Below, in pieces: positions 4,896 through 47,829 of a stretch of 64,000 nucleotides of DNA. Source of the DNA: a virus. The notes under the pieces were generated by a model. That model was given only the letters and a program-made list of their open reading frames with translations, made no database searches and was not told where the DNA came from. The translations under genes were made by a program, and so were the position numbers. Within the stretch, counting starts at the first letter, position 1; each line of letters starts with the position of its first letter. The stretch is taken from positions 36,643-100,642 of IMG/VR virus record IMGVR_UViG_3300037502_003888; one strand, 5' to 3'.

Positions 4896-4898
4896 CCC

Positions 4899-8408: not shown

Positions 8409-8411
8409 CAC

Positions 8412-9914: not shown

Positions 9915-9915
9915 C

Positions 9916-11550: not shown

Positions 11551-11557
11551 GTACAGC

Positions 11558-11932: not shown

Positions 11933-11951
11933 ACTGCGCGGTTTTTAGCCA

Positions 11952-11960
11952 AAATAAATA
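11952..11960 (+). promoter_or_regulatory. Late-promoter-like element (AAATAAATA) before gp6
   Basis: AAATAAATA lies in the 51-base gap between gp25 and gp6, about 24 bases before the gp6 ATG. It matches seven of eight positions of the T4 late consensus TATAAATA. The gap is unusually large for this operon, which fits a promoter. Confidence 0.5.
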
Positions 11961-11983
11961 ATCCATACACAAGGCGATGACCC

Positions 11984-31197: not shown

Positions 31198-31200
31198 ATA
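31193..31200 (+). promoter_or_regulatory. T4-type late promoter TATAAATA
   Basis: An exact match to the T4 late consensus TATAAATA. It overlaps the stop codon of the preceding gene and lies 25 bases before the tail-fibre ATG at 31226. The expected start is near 31206, which leaves room for the AGGTAA ribosome-binding site. It is the best late promoter in the window and the likely target of the gp55-like factor. Confidence 0.75.
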
Positions 31201-33028: not shown

Positions 33029-33029
33029 C

Positions 33030-34520
33030 ATGAGCATCGGTTCCGGTCAACTCATTGACACAGGTGATTACAATAGCTTTTTAAGTTGGGCTATGATTTA
33101 CATCGCCGGCAATGGCAGCAACACGCAGTACATGGGTTATGGCCAACCCGAAAGTTTTTGGGGAGCTACTTATGTGCAGACCGGAGAATTGATCACTGCA
33201 CAACAGTGGCAGAGACTCATTGGTATCTGTGCTAGTTTGGCTGCATATCAGCAAAACACTTTTGTCACTAATTTTCCACCTTCACCTTCCTCGGGTGAAC
33301 TTATTCCAGGTACCCTCAATTCTCTGACAAACATATTGATTGCCCTCATGCAACAATCCGGTTGGTCTGGATGGAGTGGTCCACAGTACACTGGATGGAC
33401 CGGACAATGTGCCAAGACCGCTGCTACACCAGCTGGAGTCTCTACCATAGAATTCAACAGCCAGGTAATTTTTGGTAGCTATGACGAAGCTCGATATTTC
33501 TGGAATGCTGGCGGCAGGGTCAAGATAGAGTTTAGCAAAAGCAGCACTGGACAACAAGGCGACGCGGATTGGAACAACTTAGCCAACAATGTCATGGCTG
33601 ATCTCTACGTGGTCAGTGGTGGCATACTGCGCCAGCAGACTCAGACCGGTTATCTACGACTCCAGGGGCAAACTTACTATGGTTTTGATGCGTTTGGTGG
33701 CACAGGAAATCCTGCGGTCTACAATAGGCTCAGTGGTTGGTACGATCTTCCGCCCGGCGGAGAATTCACCAAAGTCTATCAACAAAACAGTCCCAACACC
33801 CCTTACAACAACAACAGCATCGAAGTCTACATCAGCAAAAATGCCGCGCAGACACAGTTGAATATCCGCGCAGTCTGGACCAACAACGAAGGTGATCCAT
33901 TCAGTGGTGGTACGGCACCAAACGGTGCCACACCGGGCAGCGCACCTTGCATGATCACAACATATTTTCCGCCCGGTGGTGTGTCTCAAGGATTCTGGCC
34001 TGTGCAGAGCTGGGGCACTCCCTTGGTCAACTGCACTATTTCAGGGCAAGATCCAATCCCGCCGGTCCCGGTGTACACCACAACAAGCATATCTGTGTGT
34101 GATGAATCGAGCCTTCAGCCTAGTAGTTCTAACCCATTATGGGCTGCGTACAAATCCCAAGCTCCTAACACACCATTCTATCTCTTGCAACCAGATACCT
34201 ATGCACCCATGTTGGTGCCCACCTCTCCTCCCTTTAATAATGCCAATCTGGGCTTTGGACCCATATATGTCAACGAGGACTACGGAAATCCGGCCTTGGC
34301 ATCGGACTGGTTTACAATTTGTAATCTCAATTCTATGCCCAGCGGAGGTACGGTGTTTTATTGGATAGATACATCAGCAAGCATGAGCAGTGGAAGAGCA
34401 GTGGAGGCATCATTGAATTTGTTCCTCAGTAAATGTTCAGCAGCAAATTTGACTGCTATCCGTGCACCTACTAGAGGACGGGAGAACTGGTTAGCGCCGT
34501 TTGTACCGTTGCCTACCTAA
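33030..34520 (+). CDS. Tail adhesin with collagen-like patch and truncated VWA-like end
   Basis: 496 residues. A short GWSGWSGPQYTGWTGQ patch near residue 112 resembles the Gly-aromatic repeats of phage fibres. The middle contains a conserved 'RYFWNAGGRVKIEFSKSS' segment and tryptophan-rich beta sequence. The last ~60 residues begin VFYWIDTSASMSSGRAVEAS. The DTSAS has the D-x-S-x-S pattern of the metal-ion-dependent adhesion site that opens a VWA domain, followed by its first helix. The remainder of a VWA fold (about 130 further residues) is missing, so the domain is either minimal or truncated. The DNA looks more AT-rich than the flanking genes. It is the last tail gene before the accessory cluster. 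Confidence 0.7.
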   Translation: MSIGSGQLIDTGDYNSFLSWAMIYIAGNGSNTQYMGYGQPESFWGATYVQTGELITAQQWQRLIGICASLAAYQQNTFVTNFPPSPSSGELIPGTLNSLTNILIALMQQSGWSGWSGPQYTGWTGQCAKTAATPAGVSTIEFNSQVIFGSYDEARYFWNAGGRVKIEFSKSSTGQQGDADWNNLANNVMADLYVVSGGILRQQTQTGYLRLQGQTYYGFDAFGGTGNPAVYNRLSGWYDLPPGGEFTKVYQQNSPNTPYNNNSIEVYISKNAAQTQLNIRAVWTNNEGDPFSGGTAPNGATPGSAPCMITTYFPPGGVSQGFWPVQSWGTPLVNCTISGQDPIPPVPVYTTTSISVCDESSLQPSSSNPLWAAYKSQAPNTPFYLLQPDTYAPMLVPTSPPFNNANLGFGPIYVNEDYGNPALASDWFTICNLNSMPSGGTVFYWIDTSASMSSGRAVEASLNLFLSKCSAANLTAIRAPTRGRENWLAPFVPLPT

Positions 34521-34580
34521 CACCTACGAGATCTAACCAATCTAAGTTGCTCAAAGCTGTATCTCCTGCTACAATGCGGC

Positions 34581-34886
34581 ATGGACCCACAAGATTTCTA
34601 TCAACAGGCGCGACAGAGATTTGATCACGAAACAGCGCGTCGTGTATTGCGCGAAAAATATCAGGCCAAGCTAAATTTTGGCTTTGCTGGTGGCATGTTC
34701 AAGGCCACTCCCGAACTCATGGTATTCCTGGCCACATGGCCTCACGACACCATGGTGCTGCTGGATCTCTACGAAAATCCCATAGAAGTCAACCGGCCGG
34801 AACTGTTGGAGATCATGCAGCAGCGCTGGCAAGAACAAATGAACGCCTGGCACGCAGAATTACAAAAACTCACAGCCCAAAGATGA
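34581..34886 (+). CDS. Conserved small phage protein, 101 residues
   Basis: Contains 'RRVLREKYQAKLNFGFAGGM', 'LLDLYENPIEVNRPELLEIM' and a basic-aromatic C-terminal helix 'QQRWQEQMNAWHAELQKL'. This pattern recurs in marine T4-like phages beside glycosyltransferase-like and radical SAM genes, but I know no function. It is mostly helical, with no signal peptide. It overlaps the next gene by ATGA and heads the accessory cluster. The 60 bases before it hold no good T4-late element; a TACAAT-like box there is too close to the ATG to serve it. Confidence 0.65.
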   Translation: MDPQDFYQQARQRFDHETARRVLREKYQAKLNFGFAGGMFKATPELMVFLATWPHDTMVLLDLYENPIEVNRPELLEIMQQRWQEQMNAWHAELQKLTAQR

Positions 34887-35686
34887 CCACGGGCGCAGTG
34901 ATTTTGGCCTATGACACCGCTGGCACGGCGTATGTCGACATGGCGGGATGGTGTGCTGCCCGAGTGCAACAATGGTTGGACGTACCTGTGAGCCTCATCA
35001 CAGACCGTGACGTGGATGACAGTAGATTTGATCAAGTGATCACGCACACCACTGATGGTCTCAATCTCCGATATGATCCATCAGCGCGCCGACAATTGCC
35101 TTGGCATAACCACACACGCTGCGATGTGTTTGATCTCTCGCCATATGATCGTACCTTGGTGCTGGACGCGGATTTCGTGATCAACAGCACGGACCTCCGT
35201 GACATCCTGCACCGCGGGCCATCGTTTCTGGCGCATCGCAAGGCCTATAATCTCGCCACAGGACTTGAACTGTGTGAGCTCAATGAATTTGGGCGATATC
35301 GCATGCCCATGTGGTGGGCCACGGTGATTATTTTTGATCGCAATCGTGAAAATCATATCATGTTTGAAGCCTGGCGCATGATACGGGATCATTGGCATCA
35401 CTACTGCAATGTCTACAGCATCGATCAAAAACTTTTCCGCAATGACTATGCCATGAGCATGGCCTTGGCTCTGATGTCAGGACACACCCTGCAGGTGCCG
35501 GCCATCCCCTGGAATTTGGCCACAGCCATGCCTGGAACCGAACTCTCACTATCCCAAGATCAACGGGAGTTCCGTCTGTCGTATCGCGACAGCCAAGACA
35601 GGATTCGTTACATCACACTGTGTGATCAAGATTTCCATGCCATGGACAAAAAACATCTAGGAGATATCGTTGCCGGATCTTCGTGA
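34883..35686 (+). CDS. Nucleotide-sugar transferase-like protein (DxD-type), 267 residues
   Basis: I start it at the ATG that overlaps the previous stop (ATGA), rather than the earlier in-frame ATG at 34736 inside that gene. The N-terminal Rossmann-like half opens with GAVILAYDTAGTAYVDMAGW, and LVLDADFVI at residues 92-100 supplies a DxD (D95, D97). This is the nucleotide-sugar/metal site expected of GT-A glycosyltransferases. A 'GRYRMPMWWATVIIFDRN' block and a conserved Asp-Gln (SIDQKLFRNDYA) follow, consistent with a GT8-like layout. Neighbouring genes at 35670 and 36702 are the same general type. The substrate is unknown. Confidence 0.6.
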   Translation: MTTGAVILAYDTAGTAYVDMAGWCAARVQQWLDVPVSLITDRDVDDSRFDQVITHTTDGLNLRYDPSARRQLPWHNHTRCDVFDLSPYDRTLVLDADFVINSTDLRDILHRGPSFLAHRKAYNLATGLELCELNEFGRYRMPMWWATVIIFDRNRENHIMFEAWRMIRDHWHHYCNVYSIDQKLFRNDYAMSMALALMSGHTLQVPAIPWNLATAMPGTELSLSQDQREFRLSYRDSQDRIRYITLCDQDFHAMDKKHLGDIVAGSS

Positions 35687-36404
35687 ACGCGGTTACTTGA
35701 TACCGGCCTTTGACACTGAGCACATAGATTATCAGCGCTGTGCCCAGCAGTTGCGAGACAGCATCTTGGCCTGGCATCCCACGGCAGACGTAACCATAGT
35801 GACTCTGGAACAATTACCCTACGGCGATCAAGGTGGACAGGCCAATGATTGGCAGCTATGGCATGTGAGCCCTTATCATGAAACCATCAAGCTCGAGGCC
35901 GACATGTTGGTCAGCAGTCCCATGGATCACTGGTGGAATCTTTTCCAGCTTCGCGACATGGTGATCAGTGTGGGAGCGCGAGATTTTTATAGCCAGCCTG
36001 CGCAGTCTAGATATTACCGTGAAACGTTTGATCGCAACGATCTACCTGATGTATACAACGCCATAACTTATTGGCGCTACAGTCGAACCGCCAAGGAATT
36101 TTTCCAGTGGTGTCAGCGCATCTGGCAGCAATGGGCTGTCTACAGGTCTCTGCTGCGCTTCAGCGATGATATTCCCACCACCGACGTGGTGTATGCCATG
36201 GCGGCCGTGATCATGGGCGTGGATCGCGTGACCTTGCCTGCGCTAGGTCCCACCATCGTACACATGAAACAACACATCATTGGCACGCAAGGTCCAGATT
36301 GGACGCAAGAACTGATATCAGAATATCACCACGGCAATCTCAGGATCAACACTGTGGCACAATGGGGCTGTGTGCATTATGTCAAGAAAGATTGGAAACC
36401 ATGA
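35670..36404 (+). CDS. Glycosyltransferase-like protein, 244 residues
   Basis: Starts at TTG 35670, preceded by AGGAG six bases upstream, and overlaps the previous gene by 17 bases. It shares the layout of the preceding gene: 'GYLIPAFDTEHIDYQRCAQQ' at the N-terminus, then KLEADMLV at residues 74-81, where the neighbour has LDADFVI. The E-A-D arrangement is a plausible DxD variant. 'FSDDIPTTDVVYAMAAVI' follows, with the late acidic residues. It is probably a paralogue that acts on the same pathway, or a scaffold if the DxD variant is inactive. It ends with ATGA overlap into the 104-residue gene. Confidence 0.6.
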   Translation: MPDLRERGYLIPAFDTEHIDYQRCAQQLRDSILAWHPTADVTIVTLEQLPYGDQGGQANDWQLWHVSPYHETIKLEADMLVSSPMDHWWNLFQLRDMVISVGARDFYSQPAQSRYYRETFDRNDLPDVYNAITYWRYSRTAKEFFQWCQRIWQQWAVYRSLLRFSDDIPTTDVVYAMAAVIMGVDRVTLPALGPTIVHMKQHIIGTQGPDWTQELISEYHHGNLRINTVAQWGCVHYVKKDWKP

Positions 36405-36715
36405 CTCTGGGCCTAGCTGATGTGTATCCCGTGCCACCACAGTTGTTTAGACTGTATCATGATGCCCAAGGGCGTCCGCTTTTTTACAGCATGCAGGATC
36501 TACCAGGGTTGTACATCGACATATCAGTGGAAGAATTCCACCAAGCCAAATTCCGCGTGCGCGTGGTCAACGGACGCATAGAACCCATGCCGTTACCGCT
36601 GTATCCTCGGCTAGTTCCCAGTGATCATGGCCAGCTGTGTCATAAACAAGACGTGTGCATCATAAGCCAAGATGCCGACGCACAACATTGGAGCCTCAGC
36701 GATGAAACGAATTGA
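36401..36715 (+). CDS. Conserved small phage protein, 104 residues
   Basis: Starts at ATG 36401 by overlap with the preceding TGA. The core 'QLFRLYHDAQGRPLFYSMQD', LPGLYIDI and 'FRVRVVNGRIEPM' recurs in marine T4-like phages, usually close to radical SAM or glycosyltransferase-like genes. It is all-beta in appearance and lacks membrane segments. The function is unknown; the constant neighbourhood suggests an accessory protein of that pathway. It overlaps the next gene by 14 bases. Confidence 0.65.
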   Translation: MTLGLADVYPVPPQLFRLYHDAQGRPLFYSMQDLPGLYIDISVEEFHQAKFRVRVVNGRIEPMPLPLYPRLVPSDHGQLCHKQDVCIISQDADAQHWSLSDETN

Positions 36716-37628
36716 TGTAGCAGATCTAGATTGTATATTCCTCACCTATGATGAGCCACAGCGTGAAGAATTTTGGGCCAAGCTGCGCAACATAGTGCCC
36801 TGGGCCAAGCGAGTTGATGGTGTCAAGGGCAGCGATGCTGCGCACAAGGCTGCTGCTGAAACCAGCAGCACAGAAAGATTCATACTGGTGGACGGAGACA
36901 ATCTCCCCGATGCTGGATTTTTTAATCTTGTGTTGGAATTCGCCTCGCCGGAATGGGAACGGGCAGTGTTTCGTTGGAGGGCTCGTAACCACGTCAACGG
37001 TTTGATGTACGGCAATGGTGGCATCTCCAGCTGGACGCGGGAATTTGTTCGCAGCATGCGCACTCATGAAAACACCGACGGGCGGGCAGAAACCCAGGTT
37101 GAATTCTGTTTTGATCCCTTGTATTGGCCCATGCACGATTGTTACAGCACCACTTATCCCAATGGTTCACCGTTCCAGGCCTGGCGTGCAGGATTCCGCG
37201 AGGGAGTAAAGATGTGCCTCAACAAAGGAGTCAAGCCCAGCCTGGCTGAATTCCAGGCCCAGGTGCATCAGCGCAATCTCGATAATCTCACTGTGTGGCA
37301 CAACATTGGCATGGATGCAGAAAATGGTATCTGGGCCATGGCCGGTGCGCGACAAGGCACATACATGACCATGCTGACACAGTGGAACTATCGTGAAGTA
37401 CAGGATTTCCAAGCCCTGGAGAGATTGTGGCGCACTGTGGAACACACAGATCCCAGAGTCATGGCCGGCAACGTGGGCATAGAGCTGCATGCGCAGTTGG
37501 CCCTGCCAGTGTCGATGTTGGAAGCCGAACAGAGCGCTTTTTTCAAACACCACTATCGCAGTGACTGGCACAATCTCGGTGTCATGACACGAGAGATGGA
37601 TGTGATCCGCCGCAGGGAAGGTTGGTAA
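36702..37628 (+). CDS. Glycosyltransferase-like protein with VDGDN motif, 308 residues
   Basis: I start at ATG 36702 (MKRIDVADLD); an earlier in-frame ATG lies deeper in the preceding gene. The order is 'CIFLTYDEPQREEFWAKL', 'VPWAKRVDGVKGSDAAHKAA', then RFILVDGDNLPD at residues 59-70 with D64 and D66 as the DxD pair. Next come a 'VFRWRARNHVNGLMYGNGG' acceptor-side block and 'SPFQAWRAGFREGVKM'. This is a known marine-phage family of GT-A-like proteins. Degenerate copies of its central block form the repeats of the 1143-residue protein at 47828. It sits directly before the radical SAM run. Confidence 0.65.
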   Translation: MKRIDVADLDCIFLTYDEPQREEFWAKLRNIVPWAKRVDGVKGSDAAHKAAAETSSTERFILVDGDNLPDAGFFNLVLEFASPEWERAVFRWRARNHVNGLMYGNGGISSWTREFVRSMRTHENTDGRAETQVEFCFDPLYWPMHDCYSTTYPNGSPFQAWRAGFREGVKMCLNKGVKPSLAEFQAQVHQRNLDNLTVWHNIGMDAENGIWAMAGARQGTYMTMLTQWNYREVQDFQALERLWRTVEHTDPRVMAGNVGIELHAQLALPVSMLEAEQSAFFKHHYRSDWHNLGVMTREMDVIRRREGW

Positions 37629-37632
37629 CGCC

Positions 37633-39030
37633 GTGACCTCCAAGGGAGATCAGAGTGATTTCATGGGGCGCGCACAGACCATGCATGACCAGTTGGGTCC
37701 TGCCATGTGCCTGGCCAAATGGAAACAGGTGAGCCTGCATCTCACCACCGGACAGAACAACAGTTGCTATCATCCGCCCCTGCATGCTATATCACCCGAG
37801 GACATCGCCCGTGATCCCGGTGCCTTGCACAATACCCAGCACAAAAAACAACAGCGGGTCATGATGTTGCAAGGTCAGCGTCCCGCAGAATGCCAGTACT
37901 GTTGGAACATGGAGGATCTCGGCAAGCTGTCAGATCGGCATTATCGCAGCGGCGAACCCTGGGCCGCCATTGATTTTGATCGCATCCAAGCCAGCACAGG
38001 GCTGGAAGATGACGTGATCCCCAGTTATGTAGAAGTAAACTTCAACCATGCCTGCAACCTCAAGTGTAGTTACTGCAGCCCACAGTTCAGCAGCAGCTGG
38101 GCCGACGAGATCGCACGTCATGGTGCCTATCCCACCAGCCAGCCACACAATGATCCTGCCCATTTCCAAGGCAGTCGCAGGCCCATACCCGTGCGTGAGC
38201 ACAACCCCTATGTAGAAGCGTTCTGGCAGTGGTGGCCCACGCTGTATCCACAGTTGGTGCATTTCCGCATGACCGGCGGTGAGCCGCTCATGGACCGCAA
38301 CACGCATCGCGTGCTGGACTATGTGATCGAAAATCCCAGCGCGAAACTGCATCTCAATGTCACCAGCAATTTTTCCGTGGATGAGCGACTATGGCAAAAT
38401 TATCTCGCCAAGGTCAAGACCATCTGTGATGGACGCATTGAACATTTCATGCAGTACGTCAGCGTGGATGGCTGGGGCGCACAGGCCCAGTACATGCGGC
38501 ATGGCCTGGATTTCGATCTGCTCTGGGATCGCGTGAATCAGTTCCTCACTGAAATACCCAGTTACAGCAGCATCACTTTCATAGTGACCATGAACAATCT
38601 GTCAGTGACCACACTGGAAAGTCTGTTTGCGGGCATCCTGGGCCTGAGGAAAACTCACAGCGAAACATATCAGAGGGTGTGGTTTGACACACCGGTGTTG
38701 CGAGAACCGGCCTGGCAGAGCCTGCAGATCCTGCCCGAAAGTTATGCTGACCATCTCGAACATCTCTGGGCCTGGATGATACGACAACGTGAACTGCCCA
38801 CGGATCCCTATCATGGTTTCAAGGACTTCGAAATACAACGGCTGGATCGTGACATAGCATGGATGCGCGAGGGTCACAACATGGAGCCAGCGCGCCTCAC
38901 ACAGCTCCGCGCAGATTTCTGGCGTTTTTTCTCCGAGCATGATCGCCGCCGCGGCACTGATTTCCTGGCCACTTTTCCCGAAATGCGCCAGTGGTGGGCG
39001 GAATGCCAACGCTGCGCTAACCTCGGTTAA
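37633..39030 (+). CDS. Radical SAM protein 1 (twitch type)
   Basis: 465 residues, GTG start four bases after the preceding gene. The [4Fe-4S]/SAM-binding cysteines are C141, C145 and C148 (CNLKCSYC), followed by the FRMTGGEPLMD motif that holds the SAM amino group. An N-terminal region with further cysteines (NNSCYHP, AECQYCW) probably binds an auxiliary cluster; such twitch/SPASM-like additions are typical of enzymes that modify peptides or sugars. It is closest in layout to the next gene: both have 'HNTxxKKQ', 'CxYCW' and 'NPYVxAF'. Substrate unknown. First of five consecutive radical SAM genes. Confidence 0.85.
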   Translation: MTSKGDQSDFMGRAQTMHDQLGPAMCLAKWKQVSLHLTTGQNNSCYHPPLHAISPEDIARDPGALHNTQHKKQQRVMMLQGQRPAECQYCWNMEDLGKLSDRHYRSGEPWAAIDFDRIQASTGLEDDVIPSYVEVNFNHACNLKCSYCSPQFSSSWADEIARHGAYPTSQPHNDPAHFQGSRRPIPVREHNPYVEAFWQWWPTLYPQLVHFRMTGGEPLMDRNTHRVLDYVIENPSAKLHLNVTSNFSVDERLWQNYLAKVKTICDGRIEHFMQYVSVDGWGAQAQYMRHGLDFDLLWDRVNQFLTEIPSYSSITFIVTMNNLSVTTLESLFAGILGLRKTHSETYQRVWFDTPVLREPAWQSLQILPESYADHLEHLWAWMIRQRELPTDPYHGFKDFEIQRLDRDIAWMREGHNMEPARLTQLRADFWRFFSEHDRRRGTDFLATFPEMRQWWAECQRCANLG

Positions 39031-39038
39031 ATATCACC

Positions 39039-40379
39039 ATGCAAGATCTCGAATTCCGCCAGCAGGTGCTGGATCCAATCAGTGACAGTTTCTGTGGTGC
39101 CAAGTGGTACAATGCCACGATATGGTTGGGGTCGGGACAGACCACCAGCTGCCATCATCCTCCCGCGCATCACGTAAATATCGAGGATGTCAAGGCCAAT
39201 CCCCGTGCCCTACACAATACCCCGCAGAAAAAACAGGACCGGGAGGCCATGCAGCAGGGACGGAGGCCCGCGGGTTGTGAATATTGTTGGAAAATCGAAG
39301 ACATGGGCCGCGACGCTGTCAGTGACCGCGTGTATAAGAGCCGCATATATCCCATTGAGGCTCTCCATGCTGCGGCTGCGACTGCACCAGATCAAGACAT
39401 CAATCTACGCACTCTCGAGATCTCCTTTGATCGCACTTGTCAGTTCGCTTGCTCTTACTGCAATCCTGCTTTCTCTAGCACCTGGGTCAAAGACATCCGT
39501 GCTAATGGAGCATACACCCATCTTGTTTCCGACGGTCGTAACCACTTCACTCACACTCATGATAGCGCTCAACTTTTTCGCTTTGGAGAACGCAATCCAT
39601 ACGTGGACGCTTTCTTTGAGTGGTGGGAATCTGATCTACATCACACCCTGGAGGAGCTGAGGATCACCGGAGGTGAACCCTTGATGTCGGGTTACACCTG
39701 GCAGCTCATTGACTGGTTCCGTGACAACCCCGGCCGCAGCCGCACACGTCTGGCCATAAACTCAAATCTCGGCATGTCTTGGGATGTGATACAGCGCTTG
39801 TTAGACAGTTGTGCTGGCATAGAGCTTGATGTCTACACCAGCATGGAAAGCATAGGTCCACATGCAGAATATATCCGCGACGGCTTGGATTACACTGAGT
39901 GGTGCATGAACATGGAGCGTGTCATGCACAGCGGTAAATTACGGGCACTGCATGTGATGTGCACCATCAATGCCCTGTGCTTGGAAAGCCTGCCGGAATT
40001 CCTGACATATCTCATGCTGTGGAAACAGCAACATGGTGCTGACTTTCCCAATTTTACCTTGAACATCTTGCGTTTTCCCAGTTTCCAATCGCCCTTGGTG
40101 CTGCCCGACACAGTGCGCACGCATCACAGAGATAGATTGCAGTCATGGTTGGATCGTTGGGGCAACAACATGGCCTTGCAGCAACACGAACGTAATCATG
40201 TGCAGAGGCTCATAGATTATCTCGACGTGGTCAAGACACCACACAGTGATGCCTTTGATATGCCGGCACTGCACAATGACTTTGCACAGTTCTATCGGCA
40301 GTATGATCAACGCCGCGGCAAAGATTTCCGCGCTGCGTTTCCAAATCTACGGGAATGGTATGACTCAATATCAATATGA
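39039..40379 (+). CDS. Radical SAM protein 2 (twitch type)
   Basis: 446 residues. The cluster cysteines are C134, C138 and C141 (CQFACSYC), with ITGGEPLMSG further on. It is a clear paralogue of radical SAM protein 1, sharing 'YNATIWLGSGQTTSCHHPPA', 'LHNTPQKKQDREAM', GCEYCWK and 'GERNPYVDAFFEWW'. The substitution of CQFAC for CNLKC keeps the iron-binding spacing. The N-terminal CxxCW pair and SCHHP probably ligate a second cluster. Eight bases separate it from gene 1, and its end overlaps gene 3 by 20 bases. The two paralogues may act on related positions of one substrate or as a heteromer. Confidence 0.85.
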   Translation: MQDLEFRQQVLDPISDSFCGAKWYNATIWLGSGQTTSCHHPPAHHVNIEDVKANPRALHNTPQKKQDREAMQQGRRPAGCEYCWKIEDMGRDAVSDRVYKSRIYPIEALHAAAATAPDQDINLRTLEISFDRTCQFACSYCNPAFSSTWVKDIRANGAYTHLVSDGRNHFTHTHDSAQLFRFGERNPYVDAFFEWWESDLHHTLEELRITGGEPLMSGYTWQLIDWFRDNPGRSRTRLAINSNLGMSWDVIQRLLDSCAGIELDVYTSMESIGPHAEYIRDGLDYTEWCMNMERVMHSGKLRALHVMCTINALCLESLPEFLTYLMLWKQQHGADFPNFTLNILRFPSFQSPLVLPDTVRTHHRDRLQSWLDRWGNNMALQQHERNHVQRLIDYLDVVKTPHSDAFDMPALHNDFAQFYRQYDQRRGKDFRAAFPNLREWYDSISI

Positions 40380-41619
40380 CAGCAGTGACCTAGCTCGACC
40401 CGTGGAGCTCAACACACGCGAAGAGTTCTTGCTGAAAAAAAGCCGCGTGTTCTGCATCTATCCATGGATACATTTGCATGCCTATCCCACCGGCGAGGCC
40501 TATCCTTGTTGTCATGCTGAGATGACGCATCCTGTGGGCAATTGCAAATCACAGACTCTCAGAGAGATCTGGCAAGGACCTGAGATGACTGGACTGCGAG
40601 ACAACATGTTGAACGAACGTGAAAGTCCTGCGTGTGCTAGATGTTATGAACAGGAAGCCTCGGGCTTCTTTTCAGGACGTCGCAGTGCCAACAAACATCA
40701 CGGGCATCACATCAAAAAATTACAAGACAATCCTTTTGAGATGACCTACTGGGATATCCGCTTCAGTAATCTCTGCAATCTCCGATGCCGCAGTTGTGGT
40801 CATATCTTCTCAAGCCAGTGGTATCAAGACCAAGCTGCCTTGGCCGGACCTGAGTGGCGCAAAACGCATCAGGTCCTGAACTATGCTGGCCGCACTGACA
40901 TCGACATGTGGGAACAGTTGCTGCCACACATTGATTACGTGGAGCAGATTTATTTTGCTGGCGGCGAACCTTTGCTCATGGAAGAACACTATCGCATCCT
41001 AGATGAGCTGGAACGCCGCGGTAGGTTTGACGTGCGATTGATCTACAACACCAATTTCACACACACGGATCTGAAAGGTCGTTCGGTGTTTGATTACTGG
41101 CGGCGATTTGAATCCGTGGCCGTGGGAGCCAGTCTTGATGCCATGGGCCCCAGGGCCGAATACATCCGCAAAGGCACTGACTGGGCACAGGTGGAAGCCA
41201 ACCGTCGTGCCATGCAAGAGATCTGCCCCCAAGTAGACTTCTACATTTCGCCCACGCTCAGTGTCATGAATGCCTGGCATCTACCTGACTTCCATCGGGC
41301 CTGGGTAGAACAGGGATTCATACAGGCACAGGATCTCAATGTCAACATCCTGCAAGATCCACGATATTATCGCATTGACATCGCTCCCCGGGGTTTCAAA
41401 CAGCAACTCCAGGATCGCTACCAGCAGCACTTGGAATGGTTGGCACCGCAAGATCCGCTGCAGAGAGCCACTGTGGGATTCCAGAGTGCTGTCACATTCA
41501 TGATGGCCACAGACAACAGCCATCTCTTGCCAGAATTCTGGCAGCGCACCCAGAAGCTGGATCATCTGCGACGGGAAGACGTGCTGGCCACATTGCCAGA
41601 ACTAAAGGAACTACAGTGA
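40360..41619 (+). CDS. Radical SAM protein 3 (N-terminal SPASM/twitch-like)
   Basis: 419 residues from ATG 40360. The N-terminus has the iron-sulfur pattern FCIYPWIHLHAYPTGEAYPC plus a second cysteine, then ACARCYEQE. This pattern is known from SPASM/twitch proteins but here precedes the radical core. The core cysteines are C139, C143 and C146 (CNLRCRSC), followed by FAGGEPLLM and 'RLIYNTNFTHTDL'. The later GASLDAMGPRAEYIRKG block is shared with genes 4 and 5 in altered form. The gene overlaps its upstream neighbour by 20 bases and its downstream one by GTGA. It belongs to the phage/aquatic bacterial radical SAM group whose substrates are not known. Confidence 0.85.
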   Translation: MTQYQYDSSDLARPVELNTREEFLLKKSRVFCIYPWIHLHAYPTGEAYPCCHAEMTHPVGNCKSQTLREIWQGPEMTGLRDNMLNERESPACARCYEQEASGFFSGRRSANKHHGHHIKKLQDNPFEMTYWDIRFSNLCNLRCRSCGHIFSSQWYQDQAALAGPEWRKTHQVLNYAGRTDIDMWEQLLPHIDYVEQIYFAGGEPLLMEEHYRILDELERRGRFDVRLIYNTNFTHTDLKGRSVFDYWRRFESVAVGASLDAMGPRAEYIRKGTDWAQVEANRRAMQEICPQVDFYISPTLSVMNAWHLPDFHRAWVEQGFIQAQDLNVNILQDPRYYRIDIAPRGFKQQLQDRYQQHLEWLAPQDPLQRATVGFQSAVTFMMATDNSHLLPEFWQRTQKLDHLRREDVLATLPELKELQ

Positions 41620-42836
41620 AAATCCCGCACGATCAATTCTGTGTGCTGCCCTGGATCAGCCTAGAAGCCAGCCCCATAGGCACAGTGCGACCCTGCTGCC
41701 TGGCCCTGGACGAGATACCCGACGATCATGGCAACAAATTCAATCTCTCCACGGCTGATCTGTCAGAGATACAGAGCAGCGCTCACATGACCATGTTGCG
41801 ACAGCAATTCTTGGCCCAAGAACGACCCGCCACTTGCCAGCGCTGCTGGAACGAGGAAGATGCTGGTCGCACCAGCAAACGCATGCACACGCTGAATCGA
41901 CTGCAACACATGATCCAGGACGAGTCATGGGACTCGCAGGCCAAACCCCTGCAGTTCTTGGATCTCAAACTGGGCAACATCTGCAATCTAAAGTGCAGGA
42001 TCTGCGGATCGTGGAGCAGCAGCACCTTTGCGGCCGAGGAGCTGGCAGAGATCCCTGATCGAGATCAGCGACGCAGCAGTTTCCACTACACCATGTTGCG
42101 TGCCGGGGCATGGCCCAGGAACAGCCCTGATTTCTGGAGCCAACTGCAGCGCATACTCACACACATACGATACATTGAGTTCACCGGTGGCGAACCATTC
42201 ATGATCGCCGAACATTTTGAACTGCTGCAAACTCTGGTATCACAGGGCGTGGCCGCAAACATAGAGATACACTACAACACCAATGGCACGCATTTCCCCG
42301 AACACGCGCCGGAAATATGGCGACATTTCCAGCACGTGGAAATAGCATTCAGCATTGATGATGTAGATCAGAGATTTGAATATCAGCGCAGCGGTGCCAG
42401 CTGGACCGAAGTCAACGCCAACATCCAGCGCTTCCGTGAACTGCGACACAGCATGTCGAATATCACTCTGCAGGTATGCTGTACAGTGAATATTTTCAAT
42501 GTGTTGTATCTGTCAGAAGTGGCACAGTGGATACACCAGCAAGATTTTGATTTTGTGTACTGGAACATGCTGCATGATGCGCCAGAGTGGAGCATACGGA
42601 ATCTGCAGTGGGCGGCCAAACGTTTCGTAGAAAATCATCTGCGCTGGCAACAGTTCACTGACAGTGATCGCCAGGAGATCAATCGCATCGTGGAATTCAT
42701 GATGTCGGGTGGACTGACCTGGGATCGCAACATCGTTCCGCGCATATTGGAATTGGATCGGCGACGAGGTGAGAGGCTAGACCAAGTGGCACCTTTGTTG
42801 GCCTATGTGATAAAATATGACCCTCCCGCCAAATAA
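41616..42836 (+). CDS. Radical SAM protein 4 (N-terminal SPASM/twitch-like)
   Basis: 406 residues. I start at GTG 41616, which forms GTGA with the preceding stop; the longer in-frame ATG at 41436 lies inside gene 3. The N-terminal cluster motif is FCVLPWISLEASPIGTVRPC followed by C, with a further TCQRCWNEED. The core cysteines are C123, C127 and C130 (CNLKCRIC), then EFTGGEPFMI and 'IEIHYNTNGTHF'. The AFSIDDVDQRFEYQRSG block corresponds to the SAM/substrate strand of genes 3 and 5. All essential motifs are intact, so it should be active. It ends with a 20-base overlap into gene 5. Confidence 0.85.
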   Translation: MKIPHDQFCVLPWISLEASPIGTVRPCCLALDEIPDDHGNKFNLSTADLSEIQSSAHMTMLRQQFLAQERPATCQRCWNEEDAGRTSKRMHTLNRLQHMIQDESWDSQAKPLQFLDLKLGNICNLKCRICGSWSSSTFAAEELAEIPDRDQRRSSFHYTMLRAGAWPRNSPDFWSQLQRILTHIRYIEFTGGEPFMIAEHFELLQTLVSQGVAANIEIHYNTNGTHFPEHAPEIWRHFQHVEIAFSIDDVDQRFEYQRSGASWTEVNANIQRFRELRHSMSNITLQVCCTVNIFNVLYLSEVAQWIHQQDFDFVYWNMLHDAPEWSIRNLQWAAKRFVENHLRWQQFTDSDRQEINRIVEFMMSGGLTWDRNIVPRILELDRRRGERLDQVAPLLAYVIKYDPPAK

Positions 42837-44115
42837 TCTCTGTCTGGCTCCATGGACGCACACCTATCTCAGTCCACAGACCGAAAGGCGGATGTGCTGT
42901 GCTAGCCGCGAACCAGCACAAAATTTCCAGCAGTACATAGACACAGCCGCTGGAACTGGGCGATACATCCCCATAACCCTAGAGCAACACTGGAACAGTG
43001 AACACATGCGAAGCGTGCGACGCCGGATGCTGGCCGGCGAGACCTTGCCTGAATGTGAAGTGTGCAATGACCGCCTGCTCAACACCGATGTGTATCGCGA
43101 TTATTTCTGGCATCTATTCCAGCACCTGTGGCCCGAGGTGCAGCGATCCACAGATGACACCGGTGCCACCACCATGCAGCCCGTGAGCTGGGATTACCGT
43201 TTCAGCAATCTCTGCAATTTCAAATGCCGCATGTGTGGTGACATGCTGAGCTCGAGCTGGGAGAGCGAACAGCGCCAGCACAACATGATAGACTGGGACA
43301 ATCCCAAAAATATCTGGATGCGTCCCACGGTGCGTGAAGAGATCTCGAGATTCCAAGACCAACAGATCGAACAGGAATTCAGTGCAGCAGTGGAACAGCA
43401 TCGCATACAGGAGATATACTGGGTGGGCGGTGAGCCTTTGATGTACGAGCAGCATTGGCGATACATGTCGCGTATCATTGAGTTGGGCGATGGCCCTGGA
43501 CTGTACGCACGTTACAACACCAATCTCAGCCGTTGTGAATATCGCGGACAGGATCTCTGGCGCGACATCTTGGCACATGTGCGCGATTGGCAGATATGTG
43601 CCAGTCTCGACGGTACCGGCCACATCGGAGAATATATCCGCACAGGATTGGATTACCAGGCATGGTTGGAAAATTTCCAGCGTGGAGTCACACACCAACG
43701 CCATCGGCGCCAGATGCGCATAGATTTTACCTTGACCTTGCCTGGACTGTGGGAAGTCATGAACATACGTGATCTCGCGCGTGGACTTGGCGTTGATGTC
43801 TTGGCCAAAGTCGTGTTTGCTTTTTCTCCGGAGATCATATGGAGTCCCTTGGCCTTGCCACGACATCTCTTGGAACCGCATCTAGCACGGCTGGAACGAC
43901 AGCTTGATGCTGGTGCCCTGCGAGATGTCATCACTAATCTGCGCCAACGTGCCACGTTCCAAGAGCAGTGGCCCGATCAGTACTGGGATGGACTGCGCCG
44001 TGGCAAGGCCCGTGTGCTAAAACTGGAATCGATCCGCCGGGCACCAGTGACCTTGGAATACATACTGAGTTATGATCCAAAAATCCTTGACTGGTGGAGA
44101 TCTATCCCCGATTAG
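42817..44115 (+). CDS. Radical SAM protein 5 (N-terminal SPASM/twitch-like)
   Basis: 432 residues. The N-terminal motif is LCLAPWTHTYLSPQTERRMC followed by C, then ECEVCND. The radical SAM cysteines are C133, C137 and C140 (CNFKCRMC), followed by YWVGGEPLMYE and 'ARYNTNLS'. CASLDGTGHIGEYIRTGLDY matches the equivalent block in gene 3. It is more divergent than gene 4 but retains every catalytic motif. It ends the run of five radical SAM genes, and its last 44 bases overlap the start chosen for the next gene. Confidence 0.85.
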   Translation: MTLPPNNLCLAPWTHTYLSPQTERRMCCASREPAQNFQQYIDTAAGTGRYIPITLEQHWNSEHMRSVRRRMLAGETLPECEVCNDRLLNTDVYRDYFWHLFQHLWPEVQRSTDDTGATTMQPVSWDYRFSNLCNFKCRMCGDMLSSSWESEQRQHNMIDWDNPKNIWMRPTVREEISRFQDQQIEQEFSAAVEQHRIQEIYWVGGEPLMYEQHWRYMSRIIELGDGPGLYARYNTNLSRCEYRGQDLWRDILAHVRDWQICASLDGTGHIGEYIRTGLDYQAWLENFQRGVTHQRHRRQMRIDFTLTLPGLWEVMNIRDLARGLGVDVLAKVVFAFSPEIIWSPLALPRHLLEPHLARLERQLDAGALRDVITNLRQRATFQEQWPDQYWDGLRRGKARVLKLESIRRAPVTLEYILSYDPKILDWWRSIPD

Positions 44116-45229
44116 AGTGGTGTTGCGAGATCCGCAACACCACAGCGATACCCTAGACTACGTGATAAGAGTCTATGATTCACCACTGGCCCGTGACTGG
44201 CACCAACAGTTACAACAGTTGCTCCGGGGCGGGTATGAATTAGAAAAAAATTTCTGTTTCTTGGGATTCCCTGACAATCCACGCACCACCCAATATCTCT
44301 GCAGTGAACTCAATCACCACATACAACGGATCAATCACAGTGACCTGGGATATCGCATAGATCTCTGGTTTGATGACCAGGCCATCTTTGCTCCAGACCC
44401 CACGTATGAGTTTGATCACATACATCCCGGACCCAATCATGATCTGTTTAATGCCTTGCACAATCATTTCGAGATACTGCAAGGCACTGTGGATTCTCTC
44501 AGTGTGTGGTATCTGCGTGCTGACCCCCAGACCAAATACAGCATACGCCAGCTCAACAACATCTGTCATGAGCTTGAAAGTCTCATACTGAGCCTGCGTC
44601 GTCGTGCCACGGCACCGCTGTGGATACGCCCCAGCCAGATCACCACATGGCTCACGGCACCGCGGTGTGATCTGTTGCCACATCATCGACAGGGGTTTGC
44701 GGAAAATGGATATGATCGGAGACTGGGCGGTGTATACATGCACTGGGCACAGATCGGCAAGACCTTGTTTGAAGTATGGCGCGACGAGGGCGCACCAGAA
44801 CTCACAAGCACGGTGTGTGAGGCCATAACACATCTCCGGTATTACAGTGGAGAATTTGACATAGAGTGGGCCCGTGACATCGTTTACGGTGAACAGGACT
44901 GGCACACCCGAGAACAAGATCAGTTCCGGCAGTGGTTGCAACACAACGACCTAGATCCCAGTGATCCTGAGCTGAGCCTGGGATACCTGCCCCTGGGGCA
45001 AGTAGATCTACAGGGCAGTTTTGGCACCACGGTGCCCGAAGAGATATGGCACATGCTCAGCAGCCATCTCGACATCTGGCGCATAGAAACCGCAGGCGTG
45101 GCAGCACAGTACGATCAGTGTTGGAGCGATGCTGATCACGAACAACAACAAATCCGCAGACTCATGGCGGGATATCAATATCATGGAGACAGTTATGAAT
45201 TGGCTACACAGGATCTGGGCACGCATTAA
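44072..45229 (+). CDS. Conserved protein of unknown function beside the radical SAM run, 385 residues
   Basis: No catalytic motif was recognised. Conserved-looking blocks include 'FCFLGFPDNPRTTQYLCSEL', 'DLWFDDQAIF', 'FNALHNHFEILQGTVDSLSV', 'RRLGGVYMHWAQIGKTLFEV', YYSGEFDIEW and a C-terminal 'LSLGYLPLGQVDLQGSFGT'. I recall such proteins from marine phages next to radical SAM genes, which suggests partnership in the same pathway, perhaps as the substrate or a scaffold. There is no signal peptide or membrane segment. The ATG at 44072 lacks a ribosome-binding site and overlaps gene 5 by 44 bases; a GTG at 44117 is the alternative start. Confidence 0.7.
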   Translation: MIQKSLTGGDLSPIRVVLRDPQHHSDTLDYVIRVYDSPLARDWHQQLQQLLRGGYELEKNFCFLGFPDNPRTTQYLCSELNHHIQRINHSDLGYRIDLWFDDQAIFAPDPTYEFDHIHPGPNHDLFNALHNHFEILQGTVDSLSVWYLRADPQTKYSIRQLNNICHELESLILSLRRRATAPLWIRPSQITTWLTAPRCDLLPHHRQGFAENGYDRRLGGVYMHWAQIGKTLFEVWRDEGAPELTSTVCEAITHLRYYSGEFDIEWARDIVYGEQDWHTREQDQFRQWLQHNDLDPSDPELSLGYLPLGQVDLQGSFGTTVPEEIWHMLSSHLDIWRIETAGVAAQYDQCWSDADHEQQQIRRLMAGYQYHGDSYELATQDLGTH

Positions 45230-45296
45230 ACTAGAGATACGTTATCGACGCAAGCTGCGTGAACTACGCAAACGCGATCCTTTTATCTACAAATGA
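45195..45296 (+). CDS. 33-residue basic, aromatic peptide gene
   Basis: ATG 45195 with GGAG at 45185-45188 (six-base spacing). The product begins MNWLHRIWARIKLEIRY, continues with an Arg/Lys-rich helix and ends KRDPFIYK. The DPFIYK ending and RYRxKL helix recur in tiny proteins of marine T4-like phages, so it is a real gene rather than chance. It overlaps the end of the 385-residue gene and the start of the carbamoyltransferase gene (ATGA). It could be an amphipathic helix that binds RNA, DNA or membrane. Given the five radical SAM enzymes upstream and its Trp, Tyr and Lys content, it is also a conceivable peptide substrate, which is speculation. Confidence 0.65.
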   Translation: MNWLHRIWARIKLEIRYRRKLRELRKRDPFIYK

Positions 45297-46765
45297 AACA
45301 CATCTTGGGTGTGTCTGCGGGATTCCACGACGCTGCTGTCAGTGTGATCGATCACGACGGCAACATCGTGTTTGCCGGGCACAGCGAGCGCTACAGCAAA
45401 CTCAAAAATGATGCCGGCATCAGTCCGGATCTGTTGGAGGATTTGCCTGATGTAGAGTTCAGTGCCATGGCTTTTTACGAACGTCCTTGGGCACACAATT
45501 TACAGCAGTGGATATCCGGTCAGCGCCGCTACAGCCACTGGACCACCTGTGGTGCTCTGCGCCATCATCTCTCGCGCACACCTGTGAACAGCCGGAGTTT
45601 TCCGCACCACCTCAGCCATGCCGCTGCAGGATTCCAGACCTCTCCGTTCAAGAGCGCTGCAGTGGTGGTGATCGATGCCATAGGTGAACTTGACACCATA
45701 TCCATTTATCGTGCGGACTATGACACACAGGGTCAGGCACGATATCGGCGCGTGTGGCGCCAGGGATATCCTCACAGTGTGGGACTGTTTTACAGTGCTG
45801 TGACACAGCGCGTGGGTCTGCGCGCCGGTGATGAGGAATACATCACCATGGGCATGGCCGCCTACGGCACGCCGTTGCACCAGCACTACCTCGCAGACAA
45901 ATTCCTAGACGATGTGGGCACGGTCCGCTTCCGTGAAAATCTCCATCTAGGCATAGCATCAAATGAGCTGGGCTGGATGACGGATCAAGACATAGCGGCC
46001 TGCGCGCAGGCCATCACGGAAAAAATCATTGATGCCGTGATGCAGCGTGCCCGCCAACTCACAGGCGAAAGCAATTTAGTGTATGGTGGTGGAGTGGCCC
46101 TGAATTGTGTGGCCAATCGGCTGCTGGGACGGCATTTTGATCGCATATGGATCATGCCCAATCCCGGTGATGCTGGCAGCAGCCTTGGGGCTGCAGCCTT
46201 GGTGCTGGGACGCAAACTGCAGTGGCACGATGCTTTCTTGGGTCATCTCATACCCGGTGACTATCCCGTGCAGGCCATATTGGCCGAACTGCATCATTCC
46301 AAGATCGCAGGTGTGGCATCGGGTCGCGCAGAGTTCGGTCCCAGGGCTCTGGGCAATCGCAGCCTGCTGGCCGACCCCAGGCTGCCTGACATACGTGACA
46401 GGGTCAATGACATCAAACGCCGGCAGAAGTTCAGACCTTTCGCTCCAGTGATATTGCAAGAACACGCGGATCAATATTTTATCATGCCCCGGGGCTGGCA
46501 ACACAGTCCATACATGCAGACCGTGGCCAGCGTGCGCAGGCCTGATTTGTTCCCTGGCATCACTCACGTGGATTACAGCGCTAGGGTGCAGACCGTGGCG
46601 CCAGGCACTGGGGGTATACGCCAGCTGCTGGAGCAGTGGTATCGAGACACAGGTTGTCCCATGCTGCTCAACACCAGTCTCAATGTGCGCGGTGAACCCA
46701 TGGTCAATGATCGCAGCGACGCTGATAGATTCCAGGATCTCTACAAAGTAAAAGTCTTGAGTTGA
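45293..46765 (+). CDS. NodU/CmcH-family carbamoyltransferase
   Basis: 490 residues. The N-terminal domain has ILGVSAGFHDAAVSVI and the metal-binding HHLSHAAAG (from residue 105). The nucleotide-binding part has 'YGGGVALNCVANR' and 'PGDAGSSLGAAALV'. The C-terminal YrdC-like domain has 'GRAEFGPRALGNRSLLADPR', 'KFRPFAPVI' and 'LLNTSLNVRGEPMV'. Enzymes of this family make carbamoyl-adenylate from carbamoyl phosphate and ATP and transfer the carbamoyl group to a hydroxyl, commonly on a sugar or natural product. All signature motifs are present; the protein is somewhat short for the family (about 560-600). It starts by ATGA overlap, and its end overlaps the convergent GT10-like gene by 25 bases. 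Confidence 0.9.
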   Translation: MKHILGVSAGFHDAAVSVIDHDGNIVFAGHSERYSKLKNDAGISPDLLEDLPDVEFSAMAFYERPWAHNLQQWISGQRRYSHWTTCGALRHHLSRTPVNSRSFPHHLSHAAAGFQTSPFKSAAVVVIDAIGELDTISIYRADYDTQGQARYRRVWRQGYPHSVGLFYSAVTQRVGLRAGDEEYITMGMAAYGTPLHQHYLADKFLDDVGTVRFRENLHLGIASNELGWMTDQDIAACAQAITEKIIDAVMQRARQLTGESNLVYGGGVALNCVANRLLGRHFDRIWIMPNPGDAGSSLGAAALVLGRKLQWHDAFLGHLIPGDYPVQAILAELHHSKIAGVASGRAEFGPRALGNRSLLADPRLPDIRDRVNDIKRRQKFRPFAPVILQEHADQYFIMPRGWQHSPYMQTVASVRRPDLFPGITHVDYSARVQTVAPGTGGIRQLLEQWYRDTGCPMLLNTSLNVRGEPMVNDRSDADRFQDLYKVKVLS

Positions 46766-47829
46766 TTCAACATGCTGTTGAATTCTCGATCCAGCACTGA
46801 CAGCAGTCCACCGCGGTAAAAATGATCCCAGTTATGTTGCACGATTGATCGGCTGTGGCGCCATATCTGTGCGCGATCTTGATGGCTGGCGCCGTCGATG
46901 TCGGCCAACAAGGCTGTGACGCGTTCCAGCCTACGTAGGTCGTTGGTTTCTTGATCATAGCTTTCGTCCCATAGATCATGGAAAGTGCGGAATCCATATT
47001 CCTTGAGATATTCTAGTGTGCCCGCTGGTGCCACCGGTATCAACAGCATGCCCAGGGCCATGGCTTTCATGGTCTTTTCAGTGAGATGCGTGCGATCTCC
47101 CCAGTACACGGTTTCCGTGGGCACATAAATCATGCTGTCATGCACTTCGGCATAATTGCCCAGGGTACTGCTGCTCATGAGCTGTTCGTGTTCGTTTTGG
47201 AAAAATCTCGGCAGTTCCAGTGATGCCAGCACATCCACGATGTCAGGATAAGCATGCCGGAACTTGTCGGCCACCACAAGGATGTCTGTGTGTTCGTAGG
47301 GACAGATGCGCGGCACACTGATATGATTGTGCATGAGTCCGTGGCGAGCCAACAGGTACACAAACAACACCCTGTGATCGCGCTCACCACCAATGATCCG
47401 ATTTGGGCTCATAAACGTGCGCCGGGGCATCACACGATGTGCAGGATGTTGCAGCAGGAGATTGCGATCGTAGCCACGATACCAATCCAACGCTGCCCAT
47501 CCATGGAAAAAATAATAGTGTGGTTGCCAGCCGTAAATATCTCGCAATCTACGCAGCTGGCCTCCGCGTTCACTCACTATCACAGCACCAGCACCGCTGC
47601 CCTGGGCGCGATCCATGATCTCGCTCCACAAGAATTGGTGATGTTGAAACTGCAGTGGTTCTTGATCATGCATGACCACATAGGCATGTGGATCAGCGGT
47701 CCGGAAACTCCGGAGATAAGGGATGTCTGCCGATCCGGGTGGATCACAGTAATACATGTCGCAATCAGGGAGATGACGTTGTATCCAAGGCCAGAACACA
47801 GTGTCGTAGATTTCATCGATACGTATCAT
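46741..47829 (-). CDS. GT10-like glycosyltransferase, 362 residues
   Basis: The one minus-strand gene inside the plus-strand accessory cluster. The N-terminal half contains 'YVVMHDQEPLQFQHHQFLW' and 'GWQPHYYFFHGWAALDWYRG'. The C-terminal half carries 'YWGDRTHLTEKTMKAMALGM' and 'YGFRTFHDLWDESYDQET', the GT10 (fucosyltransferase-like) nucleotide-sugar signature plus the DESYD block seen in this window's other two copies. Its start codon overlaps the divergent gene at 47828 by two bases, leaving no intergenic promoter space. It probably transfers a sugar in the glycan pathway of this cluster; acceptor unknown. Confidence 0.75.
   Translation of the reverse strand: MIRIDEIYDTVFWPWIQRHLPDCDMYYCDPPGSADIPYLRSFRTADPHAYVVMHDQEPLQFQHHQFLWSEIMDRAQGSGAGAVIVSERGGQLRRLRDIYGWQPHYYFFHGWAALDWYRGYDRNLLLQHPAHRVMPRRTFMSPNRIIGGERDHRVLFVYLLARHGLMHNHISVPRICPYEHTDILVVADKFRHAYPDIVDVLASLELPRFFQNEHEQLMSSSTLGNYAEVHDSMIYVPTETVYWGDRTHLTEKTMKAMALGMLLIPVAPAGTLEYLKEYGFRTFHDLWDESYDQETNDLRRLERVTALLADIDGASHQDRAQIWRHSRSIVQHNWDHFYRGGLLSVLDREFNSMLNQLKTFTL

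Follow-up and report, generated by a model that had tools for sequence, protein, structure and literature searches.

Five radical SAM genes as the conserved core of a putative glycan cassette behind the tail-fibre genes of uncultured T4-like phages

Introduction

What could a phage do with five twitch-type radical SAM enzymes encoded one after another? The question is raised by the 64,000-nucleotide window analysed here (positions 36643-100642 of the 100,642-base virus record IMGVR_UViG_3300037502_003888), in which an earlier note, made from the sequence alone, had pointed to five complete genes of this kind at 37633-44115, separated by an 8-base gap and then by overlaps of 20, 4 and 20 bases. 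These boundaries were found as claimed. The placement in a phage was also borne out, since the same record contains genes for a T4-type major head protein, a portal protein and baseplate wedge and hub proteins; the source of the module is large uncultured T4-like phages. The run is real and, beyond what had been noticed, constitutes the core of a longer module that follows tail-fibre genes (Table 1). The literature search turned up no description of a five-paralogue module, nor any account of radical SAM together with carbamoyltransferase genes in freshwater phages. The findings agree with the earlier statement that no substrate is known. The explanation favoured here is that these genes form the unvarying centre of a phage cassette for glycan synthesis, with transcription continuing into it from the tail-fibre genes.

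Results

Table 1. Features of the module and its surroundings (positions within the window).
Feature	Position	Strand	Description
TATAAATA	31193..31200	+	Resembles T4-type late promoter box, 26 bases ahead of F16; sole copy in window
F16	31226..33028	+	Tail-fibre/virion structural, module head; phrog_14394, phrog_972; 63% identity to relatives' F16
F12	33030..34520	+	Tail-fibre-like virion structural; phrog_29022; homologous to relatives' F12
F14	34581..34886	+	Small conserved protein at tail fibre/glycosyltransferase junction; 53% identity to relatives' F14
gtA	34883..35686	+	Probable nucleotide-sugar transferase; LDAD motif; position conserved in relatives
gtB	35670..36404	+	Probable glycosyltransferase; position conserved in relatives; no Pfam match
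orfC	36401..36715	+	Small protein, start inferred; position conserved, sequence weakly so
gtD	36702..37628	+	Probable GT-A-fold glycosyltransferase; ~72% identity across relatives
r1	37633..39030	+	465 aa, GTG start; N-terminal-twitch radical SAM; NF033640 E=5.8e-93, 312 bits
r2	39039..40379	+	446 aa; N-terminal-twitch radical SAM; NF033640 E=1.6e-88, 298 bits
r3	40360..41619	+	419 aa; N-terminal-twitch radical SAM; NF033640 E=2.4e-117, 392 bits; SPASM E=6e-12
r4	41616..42836	+	406 aa; N-terminal-twitch radical SAM; NF033640 E=7.7e-99, 332 bits
r5	42817..44115	+	432 aa; N-terminal-twitch radical SAM; NF033640 E=3.7e-81, 273 bits
x6	44072..45229	+	Conserved protein, start uncertain; model pLDDT 84
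cmt	45293..46765	+	NodU/TobZ-type O-carbamoyltransferase; phrog_1601
gtE	46741..47829	-	Probable GT10-like glycosyltransferase; motif and context only
big	47828..51259	+	1143-aa repeat protein beside module; 66-residue internal repeats; homologues in relatives; no Pfam match
DegT	51216..52325	-	DegT/DnrJ/EryC1/StrS sugar aminotransferase; PF01041 E=1e-59

Family membership and catalytic residues

All five proteins match the NCBIfam model NF033640 (N_Twi_rSAM) over their full length with 273-392 bits, far above the curated cut-off of 170 bits. With Pfam PF04055, r4 alone exceeded the cut-off, and r3 and r5 fell slightly below it. The motifs CxxxCxxC and GGEP were found in each protein, much as the earlier note had described them, and four twitch cysteines precede CxxxCxxC in every case. 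A majority of copies lacking essential residues would have spoken against a coordinated system, but no more than one of the 913 distinct copies has lost any of the seven cluster cysteines (four twitch and three core; all seven kept in r1 181/181, r2 195/196, r3 193/193, r4 174/174, r5 169/169). Additional conserved cysteines outside the clusters, present in r1, r2, r4 and r5 (among them r2 C314, r4 C288 and r5 C261), could serve as hydrogen-atom donors; for HygY, a change from epimerase to dehydrogenase activity on cysteine mutation has been reported. The proposed division into two sets stood in part: r1 and r2, which share 32% identity, form one clade with support of 100, and r3-r5 have a common motif but are not a single clade in the tree. 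One further radical SAM gene, the sixth and less closely related, is located outside the window.

The module around the radical SAM genes

The module comprises, in order, two tail-fibre genes, a small ORF, gtA, gtB, orfC, gtD, r1-r5, x6 and the carbamoyltransferase gene, and the series F16-F12-F14-gtA-gtB-orfC-gtD-r1..r5-cmt is conserved across two phage lineages. The start given for gtA is presumptive, set by an overlap of 4 bases with F14; its product had no Pfam or NCBIfam match, and a role as nucleotide-sugar transferase is suggested by its motif and context. The predicted structure of gtD (pLDDT 69) had PDB 2p6w as its best fold match, with a probability of 0.97 and a low TM-score. The products of x6, gtA, gtB and gtE matched no known family; the x6 model was confident, yet gave no PDB fold match at E<=0.001, and gtE had no Pfam, NCBIfam or PDB profile match. 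Both the N and C Carbam_trans domains were matched in cmt (E=5.7e-37 and 1.4e-48).

In relatives, fixed slots of the module hold variable sugar genes (NDP-sugar epimerase, FkbM methyltransferase, AMP-ligase and GT10-like families), including several variants of gtE. A DegT gene also occurs in the module of the L084 type. An amidinotransferase of relatives, F13, is present in 44 of 80 loci, with whole-length profile matches that include the C-terminal Cys motif (AGAT E=2e-19, StrB1 8e-14, SxtG 1e-13); no such gene lies beside the cassette in the window. Almost all cassette products are predicted to be soluble, at least two membrane segments being predicted in only 2 of 1726 cassette ORFs versus 143 of 1171 ORFs at control loci.

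The module may be expressed late, although the late-promoter evidence is thin. The box TATAAATA occurred at least once in 25 of 100 shuffles, and in relatives the box lies within 90 bases upstream of 10 of 108 F16 genes and of none of the r1-r5 genes.

Conservation and ancestry

Conservation of gene order was assessed in the 161 viral loci possessing both gtD and the carbamoyltransferase gene. All five r genes lie between these two in 158 of them, and two orders cover nearly all loci, so the loss of order in relatives that would have weakened the earlier proposal was not observed. A chance origin of the run is excluded by the conservation of order, sequence and cysteines across hundreds of contigs. 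The phylogenetic analysis revealed five ancient orthologous groups, each represented in two phage lineages and on one Bacteriovoracaceae chromosome. Recent tandem duplication was rejected, the five groups being ancient and separate in the tree. Because the groups span both phage lineages and a bacterium, the set appears to be coordinated and, judging from the phylogeny, to predate the phage lineages. The idea of a coordinated system thus gains support from the retained order, the intact copies and the joint travel of five groups across phage lineages and into a bacterium. Chemistry on one substrate, as the earlier note proposed, is only one possibility, since the enzymes may instead target separate residues within a single glycan.

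No cultured phage with the module was found in a search of 50,697 phage records, which matched nothing beyond distantly related genes of Vibrio phages and a short fragment from a marine single cell. When bacterial genomes were scanned, the r3 alignment gave no confirmed match, and a broader alignment recovered matches. In the Bacteriovoracaceae locus all five types stand together, adjoining the L21 and obg genes, with no glycosyltransferases. Three contigs listed as bacterial MAG contigs (L084, L085 and L107) nevertheless hold the module in its phage form, which in L084 and L107 includes the tail-fibre and glycosyltransferase genes as well; all three were for these reasons treated as binned phage. 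In a Bacteroidota genome an r3 orthologue adjoins genes for a carbamoyltransferase, a GDSL protein, UbiA and a GT4 enzyme.

Discussion

A virion glycan as the preferred reading

Sugars are suggested as the common theme by the neighbours: glycosyltransferases, the carbamoyltransferase, the DegT aminotransferase and, in relatives, the NDP-sugar epimerase and amidinotransferase. We tentatively favour, at somewhat below even odds, a pathway in which an amino-sugar glycan is made in the cytoplasm and edited there by radical chemistry; its acceptor would be the virion, probably its tail fibres, rather than the host surface. Glycosyltransferases would build the glycan from activated amino sugars made by phage and host. 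Each twitch enzyme would then introduce a different edit, an oxidation or epimerisation at a ring carbon comparable to those of BtrN and HygY, into the glycan residues or their sugar precursors. The carbamoyltransferase would finally cap the glycan, with amidino-, methyl- or acyl-type enzymes also acting in relatives. A finished glycan need not be the substrate, since the Bacteriovoracaceae set lacks glycosyltransferases.

Several observations argue for this reading. The only PDB profile match of r3, in the twitch domain, is BtrN (4m7t), a twitch radical SAM aminocyclitol dehydrogenase of butirosin biosynthesis. The fold match of gtD is a virus-encoded glycosyltransferase of the chlorovirus PBCV-1 that acts on the major capsid protein in the cytoplasm. 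The Bacteroidota r3 orthologue has sugar-cluster company, distant twitch radical SAM genes of Vibrio phage K566 are interleaved with those of glycosyltransferase-like proteins, and predicted membrane segments are nearly absent from the cassette. Counted against it were the weakness of the BtrN match (E=0.0066), the low confidence of the gtD model, the absence of family matches for gtA, gtB, gtE and x6, and the thin late-promoter evidence. A bolder version, in which all five enzymes work in turn on the same aminocyclitol-like amino-sugar unit displayed on the tail fibres and are shared as a ready-made set with predatory bacteria, seems unlikely.

The acceptor is the point at which the strongest rival departs. 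The cassette might instead remodel a host surface polysaccharide such as the O-antigen during infection and so block superinfection by competing phages; lipid-linked precursor sugars would be edited in the cytoplasm and exported by host machinery. The same role has been proposed for glycosyltransferases of the pelagimyophage tail-fibre region (PMC7029224), and the Bacteroidota cluster, with its carbamoyltransferase and GT4 genes, fits it. It is nonetheless a minority possibility, perhaps one chance in four, for the cassette lacks GtrA/GtrB-like, flippase, polymerase and acyltransferase membrane proteins, and its genes follow tail-fibre rather than early genes. Serotype conversion of the Gtr type, with a membrane flippase and a lipid-carrier glycosyltransferase, finds no counterpart among the cassette ORFs, given the membrane-segment counts above. 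A tail-fibre acceptor is likelier than the host envelope because the products are predicted to be soluble and are encoded behind tail-fibre genes.

The product of the set could also be a small molecule that stays free, or else an unusual donor sugar, in either case aminocyclitol-like and comparable to those of the butirosin or streptomycin pathways; the phage would use or release it, and the glycosyltransferases would do no more than attach it. Amidinotransferases, carbamoyltransferases and DegT enzymes, all among the neighbours here, are familiar from aminoglycoside pathways, and the Bacteriovoracaceae set does without glycosyltransferases. We consider this improbable: phage sets are always linked to glycosyltransferases, and a non-exhaustive search identified no gene of the inositol-phosphate or 2-deoxy-scyllo-inosose synthase type.

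Direct modification of peptide chains, in virion proteins or a ribosomal peptide, is about as doubtful, if not slightly more so. Most SPASM-type enzymes act on peptides, weak matches to SPASM/twitch maturases of peptide natural products were found, and tail-fibre genes adjoin; but r1-r5 reach no equivalog cut-off and match no recognition domain, sugar genes surround the set, and no conserved precursor-like short peptide gene was found (orfC and F14 encode 100-140 aa and are weakly conserved). Hypermodification of phage DNA bases is very improbable and was rejected: carbamoyltransferases and glycosyltransferases acting on 5-hydroxymethylcytosine are known (for the former, PMC8670742), but the thymidylate synthase/dCMP hydroxymethylase family occurs in only 1 of 39 records; a Tet/JBP dioxygenase search matched 0 of 19 records, although the accompanying control search gave no match anywhere either.

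To our knowledge, radical-edited virion glycans are known in no phage. That the set matters to these phages is indicated by its near-constancy in hundreds of viral contigs while slot genes vary. If sugars on the virion are indeed edited, the surface chemistry of phages would gain a new level tied to host recognition, and the cassette would be a place to look for new carbohydrate-active radical enzymes. Because its orthologous groups are cleanly separated, the system can be tested gene by gene.

Comparison with known systems

The NF033640 family, to which r1-r5 belong, has no assigned reaction, and its available description includes no fixed five-paralogue phage module. Radical SAM cassettes were noted, with no function given, in the host-recognition region of pelagimyophages (Zaragoza-Solas et al. 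2020, PMC7029224); that region was called hypervariable, and no conserved five-gene core, carbamoyltransferase, amidinotransferase or radical SAM function was described there. The PBCV-1 enzyme resembles gtD in predicted fold but not in sequence, and comes from a eukaryotic virus without radical SAM genes. Vibrio phages K566 and K567 likewise have several twitch radical SAM genes beside GT8-like and GT4-like genes, but at about 24% identity these are not r1-r5 orthologues, and their order is not conserved. In BtrN the twitch domain is C-terminal, whereas in r1-r5 it is N-terminal, and the similarity is weak; BtrN and the phage enzymes agree, however, in having a single auxiliary cluster to which four cysteines belong (PMC9012708 for BtrN).

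The five radical SAM genes and their phage

The earlier note had described five consecutive genes of twitch-type radical SAM proteins (r1–r5); their positions, as well as the gap of 8 bases and the overlaps of 20, 4 and 20 bases between them, were confirmed. All five products match the NCBIfam family NF033640, "twitch domain-containing radical SAM protein", with 273–392 bits (cut-off 170 bits). Their pairwise identity is 22–32%, so they do not stem from a recent duplication. The parent virus record of 100,642 bases, of which the window covers positions 36643–100642, encodes T4-type baseplate, portal and major head proteins, and the baseplate wedge protein is 32–37% identical to those of jumbo myoviruses, e.g., Agrobacterium phage Atu_ph07 and Pseudomonas phage PA5oct. 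The structural region also contains one 4910-aa ORF whose Pfam matches are all borderline; its product is probably a virion protein such as a giant fibre. Outside the window, the phage record has a sixth radical SAM gene.

Coordinates of the features discussed (window positions unless another record is named)
Feature	Position	Strand	Remark
4910-aa ORF	15703–30435		
F16 to cmt	31226–46765		same arrangement as in relatives
r1–r5	37633–44115	+	
x6	44072–45229		
1143-aa repeat protein	47828–51259		
Sugar aminotransferase	51216–52325		DegT/StrS type
Sixth radical SAM gene	13790–14818 (L002, the phage record)	-	SPASM-like domain C-terminal (usual order)
Radical SAM row	4824–16820 (L132, Bacteriovoracaceae)		seven genes

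Gene order and ancestry of the module

The scan with r3 retrieved 212 related viral contigs (the best 80 of the 212 are 71–77% identical in r3), r5 gave 569 matches and r2 of a second lineage at least 600. Gene mapping revealed a constant order behind the tail fibres, F16-F12-F14-gtA-gtB-orfC-gtD-r1-r2-r3-r4-r5-x6-cmt, where F16 and F12 are tail-fibre genes, F14 and orfC encode small proteins, and gtA, gtB and gtD encode probable glycosyltransferases. The five genes belong to this larger module and are not a mere run. All of r1–r5 are kept in 158 of the 161 loci possessing both gtD and cmt; the exact order gtD-r1-r2-r3-r4-r5-cmt was found in 125 of the 161, and gtD-r1-r2-r3-r5-r4-cmt in 25. 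The number of distinct contigs behind these loci is somewhat smaller, since several scans share part of their contigs. In the second lineage, labelled marine from MAG titles and represented among others by contigs from the bins of a Pelagibacter MAG (L084) and a TMED MAG (L107), r5 is mostly upstream of r4, an SGNH-type gene replaces x6, and genes of a DegT aminotransferase and an NDP-sugar epimerase often follow downstream. The fold of the x6 product was predicted confidently and had no PDB match. Differing sugar genes are inserted in relatives after gtD, r1, r4 and cmt. In large relatives (G008–G025), a single record can hold as many as 15 genes of the NF033640 type, versus the five of the core. 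Beside the cassette, both lineages conserve a 1143-aa protein with at least five repeats of 66 residues around WxPDPGDPxYIYVFGNQW and a C-terminal part resembling gtD.

Of 913 distinct r1–r5 sequences, 912 retain the three cysteines of the core as well as the four of the twitch domain. The maximum-likelihood tree of 138 proteins, built by a quick method and containing some long branches, recovered groups (support in brackets) for r1 (99), r2 (100), r3 (99), r5 (98) and r4 (86). Each group includes both phage lineages and a member from a Bacteriovoracaceae MAG chromosome (L132); the five genes therefore predate these lineages and are transferred together. On that chromosome, seven consecutive radical SAM genes (r2, r5, another, r3, r4, r1, r2) adjoin L21 and obg, without glycosyltransferases; an r5-like gene at E ≤ 1e-80 occurs in 7 of the 129 genomes searched in this bacterial class. 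Two Elusimicrobia contigs (L144, L152) consist of very long ORFs (560–1130 aa) in tandem, with matches of the r3 type; these may be a radical SAM array, either multi-domain or encoded by repeats. A "Rickettsiales" MED657 contig (L141), which may be a phage, has a row of at least eight radical SAM genes that belong to different types.

Candidate substrate

Several lines of evidence point to sugars as the substrate of r1–r5. The cmt product is a NodU/TobZ-type carbamoyltransferase, and a sugar aminotransferase is encoded in the window; relatives also carry an amidinotransferase (AGAT 2e-19, StrB1 8e-14), an NDP-sugar epimerase and an FkbM methyltransferase. The low-confidence model of gtD matched best the PBCV-1 capsid glycosyltransferase, followed by other GT-A enzymes. 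The sole PDB match of the r3 profile, via the twitch domain (E = 0.0066), was BtrN, which oxidises an aminocyclitol and has one auxiliary cluster with four cysteine ligands (PMC9012708). Twitch domains are C-terminal extensions according to this review; in r1–r5 the domain is N-terminal. In a Bacteroidota genome, an r3 orthologue adjoins genes of a carbamoyltransferase, a GDSL protein, UbiA and a GT4 glycosyltransferase, and distant NF033640 genes of Vibrio phages adjoin those of glycosyltransferase-like proteins. Besides the cluster ligands, r1 C458, r2 C314, r4 C288 and r5 C261 are nearly invariant, also in bacterial members; by analogy with HygY, such a cysteine could serve as the H-atom donor in epimerisation. 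DNA modification is disfavoured by the presence of the thymidylate synthase family, including dCMP/dUMP hydroxymethylases, in only one of 39 records; Tet/JBP matches numbered 0 in 19 records, in a search run without a positive control.

Site of action

At least two membrane segments were predicted in 2 of 1726 cassette ORFs versus 143 of 1171 ORFs in bacterial control loci. This argues against Gtr-type serotype conversion and in favour of a cytoplasmic site of action. The cassette shares its strand with the tail-fibre genes and lies downstream of them. The TATAAATA box has its sole copy in the window 26 bases upstream of F16; among relatives it precedes 10 of 108 F16 genes and none of the r1–r5 genes. 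One late transcript for tail fibres and cassette is weakly supported. In pelagimyophages, the host envelope was proposed as the target of neighbouring glycosyltransferases (PMC7029224); here the scarcity of membrane segments, the position behind the tail-fibre genes and the tentative late transcript favour, though not strongly, the virion as the acceptor.

Comparison with known systems

A 2020 paper on T4-like pelagimyophages mentions radical SAM cassettes in the region of their tail-fibre genes but gives no detail (PMC7029224). The literature search found no paper describing the five-gene core, and no reaction assigned to NF033640 was found. We interpret the module as a phage glycan cassette whose conserved set of radical SAM enzymes is unprecedented.
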